Positions 9,816-27,657 of a stretch of 32,258 nucleotides of DNA are shown in pieces. Each line of letters opens with the position of its first letter. The first letter of the stretch is position 1. The stretch lies in assembly GCA_021731085.1 (NCBI GenBank), contig JAKFYB010000036.1:1-32258 (forward strand). The letters are read 5' to 3'. The DNA comes from Dehalococcoidia bacterium (GTDB lineage Bacteria > Chloroflexota > Dehalococcoidia > DSTF01 > JACRBR01). A program made the translations under genes and the position numbers. The notes below the pieces were generated by a model. The model searched no databases, was not told where the DNA came from, and saw only the letters and a list, made by a program, of their open reading frames with translations.

Positions 9816-12389
9816 CTACGCGACGCCGAGAAGCTCGTTGACCCGTCGCGAGGGCGGGGGAGGAGTCGAGCCCACCGGAGCAGGCTTGTAGCGGCCACGG
9901 CGCTGGTTCGAACGGCGGCCGCTCAGGAGCTGCATGATCGCCGACCCGACCGCGAGCTGCGTCTGCGGGCCCACCTGGGGGATGCCGGTGGGCGTGAAGT
10001 TCAGCCCGCCCTGCCCGTCGGCGCTGACGCCCTCCATGGTGCCGACCTCGCCGGCCTCGGCGTAGTGCCGGCCCGACTCCCGCCCGATGAGGTCGGCGGG
10101 CTCGTTGAGCATGAGGTGCGGCGTGCCGTCGGGGTTCTGCGCGACCATGCCGGGGTTCTCGCCCAGCATGGGGCCCGCAGTGCCGCCGGCGGCGTACTGG
10201 ATGTTCGAGGGCACGTCGGAGCGGAAGAGGCGCTGGTAGACCTCGCTCTGCAGCGGGTTGAAGCCGGGGACGCGGTAGCCGGCGCTGAGGTCTTGGCCCT
10301 GGAAGTCGCGCCCGATCGTGTTGAGGTTGCGCAGGATGTTGCTCAGGTTCTGAAATCCACCGAACCGGGCCGACTTCCCCATGAGGCCGACGTCGGTCTC
10401 GTTGGGGCCCGTAAAGCGCGTGACTGCCTCGTCACGGAGACCGTCTGCACTGACGGGACGGTTCGTCTCGACCGACCTCGGGGACATGCTCCGCGGCCGC
10501 CACTGGTTCGCCGTCGAGTAAGCCTCTGCGGTGCCGCCGCCGGCGAAGCCGATCTTGCGGTAGTAGTCGCTCTCGGGGATGGACTGGCTGCCAGCGAACT
10601 CGTTGAACCCGTTGATGCGATCCCCGGCACTGAGGCCCTGCTCGCGGTAGTTCTGCCCCATATCGGCGAGGCCGACGCGGATGCCGGGGAAGTCAGCCGG
10701 CATGCCGGTGCGGGCGCGGAACTGCAGTTGCTGGAAGCGCGGGGTCTGCCAGTCGTTGAACGCGCTGATCGCGGTGCGAAGACCGGAGTCAGCCGACGCG
10801 CCGCTGTACATCCAGTCGGAAGGGTTGACCCGCGTGGCCTGCTGCTGCGAGGACGTCGTCGCCTGCGGGTTCCGCACTGACGAAGCCGCTGCAGGGGCGG
10901 CAGGGGCAGCAGTGCCGTTCGAGGCCGCAGCGGCAACAGCGGTGTTCTGCCCGTTGATCTTCGCCTGCTCTTCTGGAGTCAGGGCTCGCTGCTGGTAGCC
11001 ACCGGTGCCGATCGCCGGGGCCTGCTGCGGCGCACGGGCCTCGTAGTCGCCGAGGAACTGCTGCGCACCCGGGTCGAGGACACCGCCTCGGCGCTTCACC
11101 TCGGCCAGATACCAGGCCCGCTCGTCATCGCTGAGGTACTGCTGACCGGTCGCCTGCTCGAAGCTGCGGCCGGCGGGCCCGACGCTGCCACCTTCTGCGA
11201 AGCCGAAGCCCTTGTAGTCTTTGGCCTCCATGCCGTAGTTGCCGGCACCGAGGAGCTTCGCCATGGCAGACGGGTTGGCTGCAGCGGGTGGGGTAGCTGC
11301 AGCCGCGGGGCCACCCGTAGTAGCGCCCGTGGGGTCACCCCCCATCAGCTTCGCGAGGATGCCCTGCTTCTCCCAGTAGTCGCTCGTGGGGACAGCCTGG
11401 TTGCCGCGCAGTTCACCGAAGCCCTGGAGCATGTCGGCGTTGAGGCCCTGGTCGCGGAAGTTCTGGCCCAGGTCGGCGATGTTCACCCGAAGCCCCGGGA
11501 AGTCTCCAGGCATGCCGGTCGCGCTCTTGAACTGCAACGACCCGACGCGCGGCTGCATCAGCTTCTTGAAGTTGTCGATCGCGCTTTTGATGTCCGTCTC
11601 GTTCCAGCCGTTCGCGCTGCCAGACGAAGTCGAGTAGCCCGAAGAGCTGCCGCCGTAAGGCTTCGCGCCGAGAGCGCCGAAGGGCTTGCCATCGTAGAGC
11701 ACGCCCTCGCCCCAGTCCGTCCACTGGTCGGGGTTCTTCGAGACGAGTTTCCATGCGTTGATGAGCTGTTGCTCGGGCGGCGTCCCCGGGGGCGTACGCG
11801 AGACGCGATCCTGCACGAGTCCGTAGCCGTTGCCGCCGTCGCCGGGGATGTTCGGGTCGCCGCCGCTCTCGCCTTCGATGACGTAGAGCATCTTGTCGGC
11901 GAGCATCTCGGCGTCAGGACGCGCACGCAGCGCCGGCGGCATCGTGTCCATGACGAGCTGACGCCACTGCTCGGTGCCCTCGCTGTAGCTGCCGGGGTTG
12001 CGCCTGGGGGCGCTGGCTTCCAGCGTGGCGCTGTCCTGGGCAGCCATGAAGTCACCCGGCTTGGCCGTCGCTACACCGCCGGCGCTGGCGGTCTTGGTTG
12101 AGGAGGAGTCGGCCTTGGCGCGTGCATCGTCGATCATCGAGTCGATGATCGAGTCGCCGTACTTGCGGGTGCCCTCGGGGTTGAGGTCAGAGACGCCCGT
12201 CCGCTGGGACTGCAGCTCCATCTTCACCTGTGCCCAGGAGATCCGCCCTGCACGCGCCGCAGCGAAGAGCTGCTCAGGAGTGGCCCCCGACCATGTCGAG
12301 GCCGAACCGCCGCCGCCAGTGTCGCCCTGGTCGGCGAGACCTTCGAAGACGATGCCAGTTGCCGGGTTGTACTCAGTCCAAAAGCCCAT
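9816..12389 (-). CDS. Large internal virion protein with lysozyme-like motif and three internal repeats
   Basis: An 857-residue protein. About 140-225 contains a transglycosylase/lysozyme-like signature: ML-x-YVIEGESGGDPN (E175 is a candidate catalytic Glu) followed by GNGYGLVQ. Downstream are three divergent copies of a repeat: about 261-345, 533-612 and 664-722. They share TGMPxDFPGxRVxxADxGQN and the downstream GLxA...GFxE...DY pattern; the third is shorter. Each copy is followed by a Gly-rich FAEGG / FAGGG / YAAGG motif (about 397, 615 and 731). Ala/Pro/Gln-rich linkers separate the units. With the 1574-codon protein next door this fits a virion protein that opens peptidoglycan during DNA entry. 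No signal peptide is seen. Confidence 0.7.
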   Translation of the reverse strand: MGFWTEYNPATGIVFEGLADQGDTGGGGSASTWSGATPEQLFAAARAGRISWAQVKMELQSQRTGVSDLNPEGTRKYGDSIIDSMIDDARAKADSSSTKTASAGGVATAKPGDFMAAQDSATLEASAPRRNPGSYSEGTEQWRQLVMDTMPPALRARPDAEMLADKMLYVIEGESGGDPNIPGDGGNGYGLVQDRVSRTPPGTPPEQQLINAWKLVSKNPDQWTDWGEGVLYDGKPFGALGAKPYGGSSSGYSTSSGSANGWNETDIKSAIDNFKKLMQPRVGSLQFKSATGMPGDFPGLRVNIADLGQNFRDQGLNADMLQGFGELRGNQAVPTSDYWEKQGILAKLMGGDPTGATTGGPAAAATPPAAANPSAMAKLLGAGNYGMEAKDYKGFGFAEGGSVGPAGRSFEQATGQQYLSDDERAWYLAEVKRRGGVLDPGAQQFLGDYEARAPQQAPAIGTGGYQQRALTPEEQAKINGQNTAVAAAASNGTAAPAAPAAASSVRNPQATTSSQQQATRVNPSDWMYSGASADSGLRTAISAFNDWQTPRFQQLQFRARTGMPADFPGIRVGLADMGQNYREQGLSAGDRINGFNEFAGSQSIPESDYYRKIGFAGGGTAEAYSTANQWRPRSMSPRSVETNRPVSADGLRDEAVTRFTGPNETDVGLMGKSARFGGFQNLSNILRNLNTIGRDFQGQDLSAGYRVPGFNPLQSEVYQRLFRSDVPSNIQYAAGGTAGPMLGENPGMVAQNPDGTPHLMLNEPADLIGRESGRHYAEAGEVGTMEGVSADGQGGLNFTPTGIPQVGPQTQLAVGSAIMQLLSGRRSNQRRGRYKPAPVGSTPPPPSRRVNELLGVA

Positions 12390-18389: not shown

Positions 18390-20371
18390 TAGCCCATCCC
18401 CGAGGTTTCGAGCGTGCCCTGGTCGGACGCCGGCGAGGCCATGCGAACGATGCCGCCCGTGCTCCCGCCACCTCCACCACCGACGCCGCCGGCAGTGCTC
18501 TGCGGGGCCCCGGGAGGGACGCCTGCGCCGGCGCTCTGGGCCATGAGGTACTCGGTCGCGTCGACGCCGAGGGTGAGGGCGTCCTGGCGGATAGAGGCGG
18601 CGAGGATGAGGCTGTCGTGCGCGTCGCGGATTCGCTTGTAGCGGCCCTCAGCGCGGATCTGAGTGATGTACTCCTCGCTGTTCTCCTTGCCCAGGATGGT
18701 CGCCATCTCCTCGTCCGTAATCCAGACCGAGCCGTCCGGCATGGTCATGCGTTCTTTCGCGGCCTGGAGGTTGGTGAGGATGGTCGAGGCGCGGCGGTCG
18801 ACGCGGAGGATGCTGCGCTCGAACTCGTAGTCGTAGCGCCTGCCCTCCCACTCGATCTTCTTGCCGCGGGGCGTCTGCTTGCCGTAGATGCGCTCGCGCC
18901 CGGTCGTGACGGTGACGCTCTTCTCGCCCTTCGGCGCGTTGTAGCGCCAGAAGTGATCCTTCATCTGCAGCAGCTTCAGCAGCACGTTGTGGTAGAGGCT
19001 GAAGGTCTCGACGTAGTCCTGGTCTTCGAGGTCAGCGACCTTGAGCAGTGAGCTGACCGGGGCGTTGCGCAGGGTGACCGCGGAGCTGTCGCCGCCGGCG
19101 AACGCGCCACGGGGGACGTACTGGTCGTGCTCCAACTTCTGCTGCTCGTAGAGCTTCTCCTCGTAGACGTTGGCCTCGGCGTCAACGTTGGTGACGGTGC
19201 CGAAGGTCGGGTTGACGCGCCCCTCGACGAGGTTCGACAGCGACTTGAGGAACGCCTCGCGAGTCGCCCCGTCAGCGGTCATCAGCTCCTTCTGCACGTC
19301 CGGCGGCAGGGGAGCTGCGTAGCGCGGGCGCTCGGCAGACCTCGAGGCCCACTCGCTCTGGGTGAAGTCGAGGTTGCGGCGGGACTGCATCATCGCCAGC
19401 AGGAAGCTCATGTAGCGGTCTTCAGGGCGGTAGGCCCCCGAGTTGTAGTAGCCGCAGGCGACGACCAGGGAGGGGATGCCGAAGGGGTTGGCCCACTCGC
19501 CCTCGCTGTTGAAGTCCTCCATCGGGGCGAGCTTGCGGCCCTTCCCGTCGCTCTGGGCGGCCGGCATGACGACGTAGTGCCGGATCTTCGAGCCCTCGTC
19601 GAAGAGGCAAATCTTGATCTTCTGGCTGCCCGCGAACGAAGAGGCCGCCTCGCCCATGCCGTAGCCGGAGCGCAGGGTCGCGAAGTCCTTGTCCCAGATC
19701 GAGAGGAGCGTCTTCTGATCGACCTCGTCGTCCTTCTTGTAGTCGCCGTAGTTCGTGACGAAGTCGACCACCGGTATCTCGTACTCGCGCACCGCGGCGG
19801 TGACGTTGAGTTGGCCGTCGTCGAGGAAGGCGGTGTCGGTGATGTCAGCGGACACCTCGACGCGTATCGGCTGGTAGCGCCGGCGGTAGGAGTCGCAGGC
19901 CCGGTTGTACTCGGCGGCCGTGAGGACGTTCTTGCCATCGCCGTTCTTCTCCCGCACCGGCAGCGTGAAGGCGTTCTGCTGCACCCAGACCGGCGCGTAG
20001 GCGCTCTGGGCCTGGTGACGGTGGATGGCGCGGCTGAGGATGCCCGAGGAGTCGACGCGGAGGAGGAAGTTGCCGTCCTGCATTTCGTGCTGGTCGGCGC
20101 GGGCCTTGTCGGCGTCGTGGTCGGGGTCGATGTGGACGGCGTACTCGGGGGCCGAGAGCGTCGCGACGACCTTGCGGGTGGCCCACTCGACCTCGTAGGA
20201 GACGATCGTGCGGATGCGGGGGTAGCCGAGCTTCTCCAGCTCCTTCTCCATCACGGGCCCGTGGCGGGCGTTTGCGAGGTCGCGGCGCGTCGCTGCGTCC
20301 TTGTGGAGTTCAGCGAAGTTGTTGCGCAGCTCCTGCACGAGCCCTTCGACGTCCGATGTCCCGTAAGCCAT
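18389..20371 (-). CDS. Portal protein
   Basis: A 660-residue protein directly downstream of the terminase large subunit, with TAATG coupling. Size, position and composition (mixed alpha/beta, long helical segments such as EEKLYEQQKLEHDQYVPRGA, and a disordered Gly-rich tail at about 632-645) fit a portal of podovirus or P22-like size. The portal forms the dodecameric ring through which DNA is packaged and ejected. I identify it mainly from order and length; the sequence itself carries no short diagnostic motif that I can point to. Confidence 0.75.
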   Translation of the reverse strand: MAYGTSDVEGLVQELRNNFAELHKDAATRRDLANARHGPVMEKELEKLGYPRIRTIVSYEVEWATRKVVATLSAPEYAVHIDPDHDADKARADQHEMQDGNFLLRVDSSGILSRAIHRHQAQSAYAPVWVQQNAFTLPVREKNGDGKNVLTAAEYNRACDSYRRRYQPIRVEVSADITDTAFLDDGQLNVTAAVREYEIPVVDFVTNYGDYKKDDEVDQKTLLSIWDKDFATLRSGYGMGEAASSFAGSQKIKICLFDEGSKIRHYVVMPAAQSDGKGRKLAPMEDFNSEGEWANPFGIPSLVVACGYYNSGAYRPEDRYMSFLLAMMQSRRNLDFTQSEWASRSAERPRYAAPLPPDVQKELMTADGATREAFLKSLSNLVEGRVNPTFGTVTNVDAEANVYEEKLYEQQKLEHDQYVPRGAFAGGDSSAVTLRNAPVSSLLKVADLEDQDYVETFSLYHNVLLKLLQMKDHFWRYNAPKGEKSVTVTTGRERIYGKQTPRGKKIEWEGRRYDYEFERSILRVDRRASTILTNLQAAKERMTMPDGSVWITDEEMATILGKENSEEYITQIRAEGRYKRIRDAHDSLILAASIRQDALTLGVDATEYLMAQSAGAGVPPGAPQSTAGGVGGGGGGSTGGIVRMASPASDQGTLETSGMG

Positions 20372-24763: not shown

Positions 24764-24991
24764 CTACCGCCGACGCCGGCGGCTCTTCTCGATTGCGCTC
24801 TTGCGGCCTCGGGACTTCATCTCGGCGACCCGTCGCGCCGCTGCGACCTGGGCGCTGCCGGCACCGCAGACGAGGCAGACGACGACGCCGAGGGTGACGA
24901 CGACAGCGGGGTCGCCGCACTGCAGGCACGTCGTCTGCGGCGGCGGGGGCGGGTCGAGGCTGAAGAGTTCGGGCTGCTCGTCGCCGGTCAT
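24764..24991 (-). CDS. Zinc-ribbon protein with basic tail, 75 aa
   Basis: Starts at ATG 24991, directly after the tiny zinc-ribbon gene (24994). CLQC (22, 25) and CLVC (39, 42) flank a beta hairpin (AVVVTLGVVV), a complete zinc ribbon. The N-terminus is Pro-rich. The C-terminus is strongly basic (RGRKSAIEKSRRRRR) and could bind nucleic acid. Longer upstream frames overlap the tiny gene and were rejected. Confidence 0.7.
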   Translation of the reverse strand: MTGDEQPELFSLDPPPPPQTTCLQCGDPAVVVTLGVVVCLVCGAGSAQVAAARRVAEMKSRGRKSAIEKSRRRRR

Positions 24992-24993
24992 CG

Positions 24994-25074
24994 CTACAGG
25001 GCGATCTTGCAGTGCGCGCAGACGTAGTGAATCCCGGTGTAGATGAGCGGGCGGCCGCAGTGCGGGCACTTCAT
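24994..25074 (-). CDS. 26-residue zinc-ribbon micro-protein
   Basis: Reads MKCPHCGRPLIYTGIHYVCA and ends at 24994. CPHC (3, 6) and CAHC (19, 22) with a 12-residue hairpin between them form a full zinc ribbon in a minimal protein. The ATG overlaps the upstream stop as ATGA and the stop lies two bases before the next start, so it is embedded in a coupled run. That arrangement supports a real gene despite its size. Confidence 0.65.
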   Translation of the reverse strand: MKCPHCGRPLIYTGIHYVCAHCKIAL

Positions 25075-25292
25075 TCGTCGGCTGCCTTCGCCACCACGTC
25101 ATCCTTCAGCGCGTCGAGCATCGCCTTGCGCCCAGCGATCGCGTTGCTGACGGTGGCGTCGACGTCGCCTGCGTCGGCCGCGTCGGTGACGGTGAGTTCG
25201 TAGGCTTCCTGCCCGCCCTTCGTCGCGCTGCTCTTGAACTTGGCGATGACCTTCGGGCCGGTGCTGATGGGTTCCTCTTCGTGCTCTGACAT
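25071..25292 (-). CDS. Hypothetical protein, 73 aa
   Basis: Start at ATG 25292, preceded by the leader motif GAAGGGAGCG. Residues begin MSEHEEEPISTGPKVIAKFK, then SSATKGGQEAYELTVTDAAD. The first part looks like a beta hairpin and the last 30 residues like a helix (AIAGRKAMLDALKDD). Function unknown. It follows the structured gap at 25331-25379. Confidence 0.65.
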   Translation of the reverse strand: MSEHEEEPISTGPKVIAKFKSSATKGGQEAYELTVTDAADAGDVDATVSNAIAGRKAMLDALKDDVVAKAADE

Positions 25293-25386: not shown

Positions 25387-25554
25387 CTAGTTCGTCGTCA
25401 TGCCGGTGAGTAGCGCTCCCTTGAGCCTCGGGTGTAGGTCGCTGAACCGCAGGGTGCCGTCGGCGATTGCCTTGCGCCGCGCCTCGGGCCACCACGGCTG
25501 CGCGTCCCACGAGCAGAGCCAGCAGACGGCACGGGGGCCATGCAGGCACTTCAT
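25387..25554 (-). CDS. Small Cys/Trp-rich protein, 55 aa
   Basis: Begins MKCLHGPRAVCWLCSWDAQP. C3, H5, C11 and C14 could form a zinc knuckle, followed by a short helix (EARRKAIADGTL) and a basic end. Start set by ATGA overlap with the stop at 25551. Some nearby small proteins start with the same MKCLH/VKCLH/MKC motif. Confidence 0.65.
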   Translation of the reverse strand: MKCLHGPRAVCWLCSWDAQPWWPEARRKAIADGTLRFSDLHPRLKGALLTGMTTN

Positions 25555-25889
25555 CGCAGCGGTCGCCGCAGAACGTAAGCGTGCTGGTGAGGCGGCAGGC
25601 CGTCGTGAGTCGACACGATGCCGTGCTTCGTAGCGTCGCCGTCGAACAGGTGCGCATCGAGGGCTGCCTCGCCCTCTGCATCGCCGTCGGCTGTGTGCCA
25701 CGGGGCGACCTTCGTCCCGGTGTCGCGCGGCCATCCGCTCTGCAGGTCGCGACCAGCGGGCCAGCCCTCGTCGTTGTAGTCGGGGCAGCCGCGACGGGCC
25801 CAGGCGAAGAGGCCGCTGTCCCACGCGACGAAGACGATGACGGCGCAGACGACGCCGGCGAGCACCAGCGGGATGATCTCGGGGTTCAT
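25551..25889 (-). CDS. Single-span membrane protein, 112 aa
   Basis: The N-terminus is a transmembrane segment (PLVLAGVVCAVIVFVAW, about 7-23) with no lipobox, followed by a hydrophilic, Asp/Gly/His-rich domain outside or inside the membrane. The ATG at 25889 overlaps the upstream stop as ATGA. No known family is recognised. A membrane-associated accessory or lysis-timing role is a guess. Confidence 0.65.
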   Translation of the reverse strand: MNPEIIPLVLAGVVCAVIVFVAWDSGLFAWARRGCPDYNDEGWPAGRDLQSGWPRDTGTKVAPWHTADGDAEGEAALDAHLFDGDATKHGIVSTHDGLPPHQHAYVLRRPLR

Positions 25890-26770: not shown

Positions 26771-27352
26771 TCACCTAACACCACCCACCGCATCAGCAAG
26801 CGCCCTCGGGCCGCAGTAGGGCCACGGCGCGACGCCTCGCAACTCGAAGAGCGCCCAGCCGCGATCGTCCTGCTCGGCCTTCGATGCGTCGCTCGGCAGC
26901 CCGACGCCGCCCATGCCCGCCCAGGTCGGCGGGTCGAACTGCAGGCCGCCGTAGAAACCGTTACCGGTGTTGATCGCGTAGTTGCCGCCCGACTCGCACT
27001 GACTCAGCGACGCGAGGAAGCGCCCACGGTCGACGCCGGAGCTGTCCCCGGCCGCTCCCATTCGCTCCGCAGGAACAGACCGCAGTGGCGGCAGAAGGGC
27101 GCGCAGGCTTCGAGGTTGTAGCGGTTCGGAGGCGTCGCCCACTCCGCCGCCCATGGCCCATTGAGGACGATCGGCGTACCTCGGCGCTTGCAGCTCTGGC
27201 ATTGTGGCAGCGCCCGATAGCGCCGAAGAGCGCGGCAGAAATTCGTGAGCAATAGCAGTGACCCCAGAACGGCTGCCAGCGTCAGAAACATGATCGACCT
27301 CCGGTGTGATAGCTAGGGCGACGACGAGCGTCGCGGCGAAGACGTAAGCCAT
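26771..27352 (-). CDS. Secreted Rpf/transglycosylase-like protein
   Basis: A 193-residue frame. It begins with a hydrophobic segment (MAYVFAATLVVALAI) fit for a signal peptide, with TAATG coupling to the upstream gene. A linker of about 90 residues follows, then an Rpf domain (about 112-193): SLSQCESGGNYAINTGNGFY with E120 as catalytic Glu candidate, GGLQFDPPTW, and C119/C180 as the likely disulfide. Rpf domains cleave peptidoglycan in actinobacteria and occur in their phages. The linker overlaps a second gene (27004-27291) in another frame, and codon use there favours that second gene. A shorter product from ATG 27061 (residue 98) is possible, but it would lack the signal peptide. Confidence 0.8.
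   Translation of the reverse strand: MAYVFAATLVVALAITPEVDHVSDAGSRSGVTAIAHEFLPRSSALSGAATMPELQAPRYADRPQWAMGGGVGDASEPLQPRSLRALLPPLRSVPAERMGAAGDSSGVDRGRFLASLSQCESGGNYAINTGNGFYGGLQFDPPTWAGMGGVGLPSDASKAEQDDRGWALFELRGVAPWPYCGPRALADAVGGVR
27004..27291 (-). CDS. Nested membrane protein with zinc ribbon, 95 aa
   Basis: Lies inside the Rpf-like gene in another frame. The ATG at 27291 has a strong GGAGGT site six bases upstream. Residues 2-18 are transmembrane (FLTLAAVLGSLLLLTNF). A basic stretch follows (RALRRYR), then C31, C34 and C67, C70 (CQSC, CRHC) form a zinc ribbon. Third-position G/C is clearly higher in this frame than in the host frame over most of the overlap, so translation is likely. The last 12 residues look unconstrained. 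Confidence 0.65.
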   Translation of the reverse strand: MFLTLAAVLGSLLLLTNFCRALRRYRALPQCQSCKRRGTPIVLNGPWAAEWATPPNRYNLEACAPFCRHCGLFLRSEWERPGTAPASTVGASSRR

Positions 27353-27657
27353 TACAGGTTCCTCCCACAGCCGCCACACCATATGCGCGGCGTGTTCGGG
27401 TCACGATAGCCCAGCTTGCCCCCGCAGCGGCACTTGATCGGCACCGCGGTCATGCGATCGGGGATCGTGTGGACGCTCGTCGAGGTGTCGAACTGCACCG
27501 GAATACTTTCGGGAATTTTTTGCGCCGCTTTTGCCACCGGTTCCCGTTTTCGCGCCTCAGGTGAGGGGGGAGAAACGGAACCGGTGTGCTCGAGGACATA
27601 GGCAGCCGTGTCGATCGCCTCGTCGTCATCGAAGGACGGCAGCTCGTAATCGTTCAC
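27352..27657 (-). CDS. Protein with C-terminal zinc ribbon, 101 aa
   Basis: The start is a GTG at 27657 in a GTGA overlap. The first 70 residues are acidic then basic and probably flexible (VNDYELPSFDDDEAIDTAAY; EARKREPVAKAAQKIPESIP). The end holds a zinc ribbon: C76, C78 (CRCGG) and C94, C97 (CGGCGRN). A longer upstream frame is out of phase with the overlapping gene and was rejected. Function unknown; it couples by TAATG to the Rpf-like gene. Confidence 0.7.
   Translation of the reverse strand: MNDYELPSFDDDEAIDTAAYVLEHTGSVSPPSPEARKREPVAKAAQKIPESIPVQFDTSTSVHTIPDRMTAVPIKCRCGGKLGYRDPNTPRIWCGGCGRNL

Follow-up and report, generated by a model that had tools for sequence, protein, structure and literature searches.

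We found that a stretch of minus-strand phage DNA probably encodes two unrelated proteins in two reading frames, with a small membrane protein gene lying inside the gene for a cell wall enzyme. The window (the whole stretch of DNA that was analysed, 32,258 nucleotides) is the whole 32-kb contig of a metagenome-assembled genome and carries a tailed-phage gene set that includes a RusA-like resolvase, a replication initiator, a terminase, and a major head protein. The nested locus sits on the minus strand, in an accessory region between the replication and terminase genes. Its outer gene (26771..27352, minus strand) encodes a 193-residue Rpf-type lytic transglycosylase, predicted to be secreted, in which a hydrophobic leader and a probably disordered linker precede the Rpf domain. 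The inner gene (27004..27291, minus strand) encodes a 95-residue single-pass membrane protein with a C-terminal CxxC ... CxxxCxxC pattern. An earlier, sequence-only reading of this DNA had placed a 95-codon frame wholly inside the outer one, and its coordinates for both frames were correct; the two frames share the strand and differ by a shift of +1.

The outer frame runs from an ATG at 27352 to a stop at 26771 with zero internal stops. Its start codon overlaps the TAA of the preceding gene as TAATG, and GGAGG lies 8 nt upstream. The preceding gene (27352..27657, minus strand), part of the same gene run, encodes 101 residues with a C-terminal CxC...CxxC pattern, for which the family search gave no more than a zinc-ribbon match below threshold. 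CxxC pairs are found in more than one small protein of the accessory region (24764-25102 and 27352-27657, both on the minus strand), and small CxxC proteins are also present in the Rpf neighbourhoods of related phages (L079 and L080). The first 14 bases of the outer gene, TGTAATGGCTTACG, are identical to those of a portal-type gene that starts at 20371 on the same strand, perhaps by coincidence.

Residues 115-180 of the outer product match PF06737 (E 6e-21; 75 bits against a cut-off of 27). The family placement, the domain alignment, and an AlphaFold model agree on a catalytic domain at 26813..27010 (minus strand) with a CESGGN motif and two conserved cysteines, C119 and C180; C119, E120, S121, and G122 are invariant in the alignment. 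The AlphaFold model, built from a 13-row alignment, is confident from about residue 105 to 190, with pLDDT 92-97 over most of that range. The closest solved structures are RpfC, RpfE, and RpfB, and Foldseek superposed the model on RpfC with 51% identity, an rmsd of 1.0, and a TM score of 0.88 by target. Residues 30-95 are probably disordered, since AlphaFold confidence is low there. The Rpf segment of the frame has a codon score of 0.23.

Ahead of the linker, the leader MAYVFAATLVVALAITPEVD (27293..27352, minus strand) is hydrophobic and lacks both a clear AXA site and a basic n-region, so that it resembles either a signal peptide or a signal-arrest sequence. Over its 20 codons the codon score is 0.33, which equals the median of true coding sequence; scores this high turn up in 0% and 0.1% of false sense frames and in 0.8% of antisense frames. 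A survey of about 170 frames with the Rpf domain, drawn from species genomes, phage records, and viral contigs, showed that the domain is generally preceded by a hydrophobic leader in a single open frame, with the caveat that start codons were chosen automatically and individual entries may be off. Leaders of the same unusual kind, free of basic residues, occur in five environmental phage Rpf proteins (L030, L072, L080, L092, and L099); one such leader, MALVVTILALAAP, can be set beside its counterpart in the window, MAYVFAATLVVALAITP. Since the surveyed domains generally lie in open frames behind hydrophobic leaders, and several phage Rpf proteins have this leader type, we take the outer frame to be a genuine gene of full length and consider this very likely. 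The leader suggests that the product is exported, and the two conserved cysteines of the domain would fit folding outside the cytoplasm.

The outer gene falls among the ordinary phage Rpf lysins. BRock gp43 of a Streptomyces phage and gene 102 of the Mycobacterium phage prophi79-1 likewise combine a leader with a PF06737 domain and CESGGN, as do actinobacterial RpfC and RpfE. Annotated phage Rpf examples differ in having a gap of about 35 residues between leader and domain, with neither a long linker nor a nested gene. A leader before the inner frame and an Rpf domain after it, as the sequence-only reading had described them, are thus both in place. That reading had also held that relatives with outer-frame stops between leader and domain would reduce the real genes to the inner one and a short Rpf gene; such stops were sought in relatives and none were seen, the relatives sharing the domain and the style of leader, not the linker.

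Export of a phage transglycosylase by its own leader has a precedent in Kayvirus Tgl, which is exported by its own signal peptide and shares an Rpf-like core lysozyme motif (PMC7150955). Tgl has an AXA cleavage site where the outer product has no clear one, and the excerpted account mentions no nested gene, unlike the locus described here (PMC7150955). Elsewhere in the window, two other minus-strand genes are of note. The product of 1866-2648 is membrane-anchored or secreted and contains WVTHELGHLLGFSD, an HExxH-type metallopeptidase-like site; it matches Peptidase_M57 only below threshold and would be unusual phage cargo. The large protein of 9816-12389 has, by eye, a second transglycosylase-like stretch (EGESGGDPNIPGDGGNGYGLVQ); it matches a tape-measure family only weakly and is possibly a virion-borne wall enzyme.

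The inner frame opens at an ATG at 27291, in the +1 frame relative to the outer gene, and closes at a TGA at 27004. Its Shine-Dalgarno sequence GGAGGT (27297..27302, minus strand), which falls within P-E-V codons of the outer frame, lies 5 nt upstream of the ATG, in agreement with the strong ribosome site first noted there. The transmembrane helix and four paired cysteines that had been read from the translation also held up: the maximum hydropathy over 15 residues is KD 2.48, and C31xxC34 and C67xxC70 give two CxxC knuckles, to which C63 is added. These motifs make zinc binding by the C-terminal part probable. An N-out/C-in topology is predicted from the positive-inside rule, because a RALRRYR stretch follows the helix. 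Farther downstream by a few genes, the frame at 25551-25889 (minus strand) encodes a further small membrane protein, MNPEIIPLVLAGVVCAVIVFVAW...ARRGC, which has no family match and is a candidate holin.

Searches with the inner product gave no Pfam match at a cut-off as loose as E 10 and no PHROG family, and its single-sequence AlphaFold model (pLDDT 56) was too poor for a fold search. We found no homologues in IMG/VR, phage and plasmid records, species genomes, or 60 kin and 300 phylum genomes; the weak matches in those collections are due to chance, and several contain stops. Terminase searches for related phages reached nothing closer than remote matches, with 25-30% identity in viral contigs, while capsid searches gave zero matches, so there was no syntenic locus to compare, and DNA-pattern scans for near-identical viral contigs returned only unrelated matches. 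None of the roughly 170 related Rpf frames contains a comparable nested gene, and no small gene combining a transmembrane helix and CxxC next to Rpf in other phages has a ribosome site. The inner protein is thus an orphan, and its reality rests on signals in one sequence.

Those signals fall within an overlap that spans outer residues 21-116, almost exactly the predicted disordered stretch, the domain match beginning at residue 115. Openness alone is weak evidence for either frame: the inner frame stays open in 40-43% of synonymous resamples that preserve the outer protein, and 19-27% of resamples that preserve the inner protein leave the outer frame free of stops across the overlap. One alternative is that only the outer gene is real and that the inner frame is a chance opening in a GC-rich linker under low constraint. 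Such an account would be in keeping with the ease with which the inner frame stays open, with the missing homologues, and with the start-signal-free open frames that occur inside 23 of 60 other long Rpf linkers. What it does not readily explain is the combination of features. When synonymous codons of the outer gene were redrawn in 20,000 trials, a nested ORF of at least 60 codons with GGAGG arose in 1.3% of resamples, one whose product also had a strongly hydrophobic helix in 0.02%, and one with a Shine-Dalgarno sequence, a transmembrane helix, and two CxxC pairs in none; the same combination was found at a single one of 16,539 ORF starts of 60-160 codons on about 1.9 Mb of scanned strands, that one being the inner gene, and both figures are weakened by the choice of helix and CxxC as features after the ORF had been seen. 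GGAGG preceded none of the 49 nested starts (at least 60 codons) inside 16 other genes of the phage. With the excess of codon signal in the inner frame described below (z 3.85), these results make a chance inner frame unlikely.

Over the overlap the mean codon score is -0.13 in each frame, which falls at the 1st percentile for windows of true coding sequence and at the 99.7th for false ones. When one protein was fixed and synonymous codons were redrawn, the other frame scored above expectation. Given the inner protein, the outer score has a z of 3.06, a value reached in none of 113 control windows; given the outer protein, the inner z of 3.85 was reached in one of the 113. A milder test that permutes the existing codons gave P 0.02 for the outer frame (0.10 given that it is open) and P 0.007 for the inner frame (0.018 given that it is open). 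Excess signal in both frames looks like dual coding, as judged from a single sequence.

This balance shifts along the overlap. Third-position bias had been said to favour the inner frame over most of it, and we found this to be so in the middle third only (27195-27100; inner 0.02 versus outer -0.18), while the first third (inner -0.26 versus outer -0.17) and the last third (inner -0.30 versus outer -0.01) lean towards the outer frame. The inner lead in mid-overlap bears on a second alternative, in which the inner gene is real and is followed by a short, leaderless Rpf that starts at 27061 (MGAAGDSSG...) and overlaps the end of the inner gene by 58 nt. The outer frame from 27352 to 27061 would then be merely open, as it is by chance in 19-27% of the inner-preserving resamples, and the locus would be a classical pair of holin-like membrane protein and cytoplasmic lysin. 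A GGAG close upstream of the ATG at 27061 would serve such a start, yet it is only 3 nt away. The short form also leaves out a leader whose codon usage is typical and whose start comes with a separate GGAGG and with TAATG coupling, and it would set the protein apart from the surveyed phage Rpf proteins with their hydrophobic leaders and leave the two conserved domain cysteines on a cytoplasmic enzyme. We regard it as improbable. We also rejected a fusion of the inner frame to the Rpf domain by frameshifting, as unneeded and topologically awkward.

An indel or misassembly that shifted frames and made two neighbours look nested must also be weighed, since the contig belongs to a metagenome-assembled genome and is somewhat off in composition: its tetranucleotide correlation with six contigs of the same genome is 0.74-0.85, compared to 0.87-0.96 among those six. 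On the other hand, both frames are complete, each with its own start signals and stop, and, with the inner stop placed right at the edge of the Rpf domain, no single indel would turn the pair into separate genes of the usual kind. An artefact is thus very improbable. The composition of the contig touches the host as well: the source genome has no other Rpf domain, the domain is above cut-off in 4 of 197 members of the class (the window's own genome included), and Rpf loci in named genomes are mostly from Actinomycetota. The phage may infect an actinobacterium and its contig may be mis-binned, a question that leaves that of the nested gene untouched.

With these alternatives weighed, we favour the reading in which both frames are translated, and we hold it to be probable. 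The locus had been likened to the nested Rz/Rz1 lysis pair, and the likeness stands for the geometry. In lambda, the gene for Rz1, a lipoprotein of the outer membrane, is embedded in the +1 frame of that for Rz, a coiled-coil protein of the inner membrane, and the two act in Gram-negative lysis (PMC6139136). Here too a small gene lies wholly within another in the +1 frame, with envelope-related products, but the pair joins an enzyme to a predicted membrane zinc protein. A lipobox is missing from both products, and the outer one is an enzyme, of an Rpf type that is typical of actinobacteria. An Rz1-type lipoprotein, for which the lipobox consensus is [LVI][ASTVI][GAS]C (PMC6139136), was considered for the inner product and rejected, as C19 is preceded by TNF in MFLTLAAVLGSLLLLTNFC; an Rz-type outer protein, anchored in the inner membrane with a helical periplasmic domain, is ruled out by the Rpf enzyme domain. 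Mycobacteriophage Ms6 lysA resembles the locus in giving a second product from inside a phage lysin gene, although, in the excerpted account, that product is an embedded second endolysin in the same frame, with no overprinting, whereas here the other frame would give an unrelated protein (PMC3111421).

Together, these results suggest a mechanism in which coupling to the gene before it, together with a GGAGG of its own, would start translation of the outer gene at 27352. The hydrophobic leader would send the protein through the membrane; behind it would come about 85 residues of disordered linker and then the C-terminal Rpf domain, whose predicted function is to cut the glycan strands of peptidoglycan. 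A second gene would have been overprinted in the +1 frame onto the linker, because the linker sequence is free and nearly any residues there would be expected to suit the outer protein. The GGAGGT of the inner gene would let ribosomes begin at 27291 on the same mRNA, and the product would be a single-pass membrane protein with a putative zinc-binding part in the cytoplasm. We infer that both products are expressed, and coupled and internal initiation on one mRNA would then fix the ratio of the inner protein to the lysin.

It is possible, on a tentative view, that the inner protein is a membrane-bound partner or regulator held at a fixed ratio to the lysin, such as a holin- or antiholin-like timer. 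Less likely still is a new type of overprinted pair in which a membrane zinc protein, having arisen de novo within the lysin's disordered linker, controls the timing or place of lysin action, a counterpart of Rz/Rz1 by geometry and not by ancestry. If both proteins are made, the locus would be a clear case of a phage evolving a membrane gene within the unconstrained linker of an exported enzyme, and Shine-Dalgarno-led nested frames in the disordered linkers of secreted phage enzymes would represent a general route to new genes. The Rpf class of phage lysins would then gain a partner from the same mRNA.
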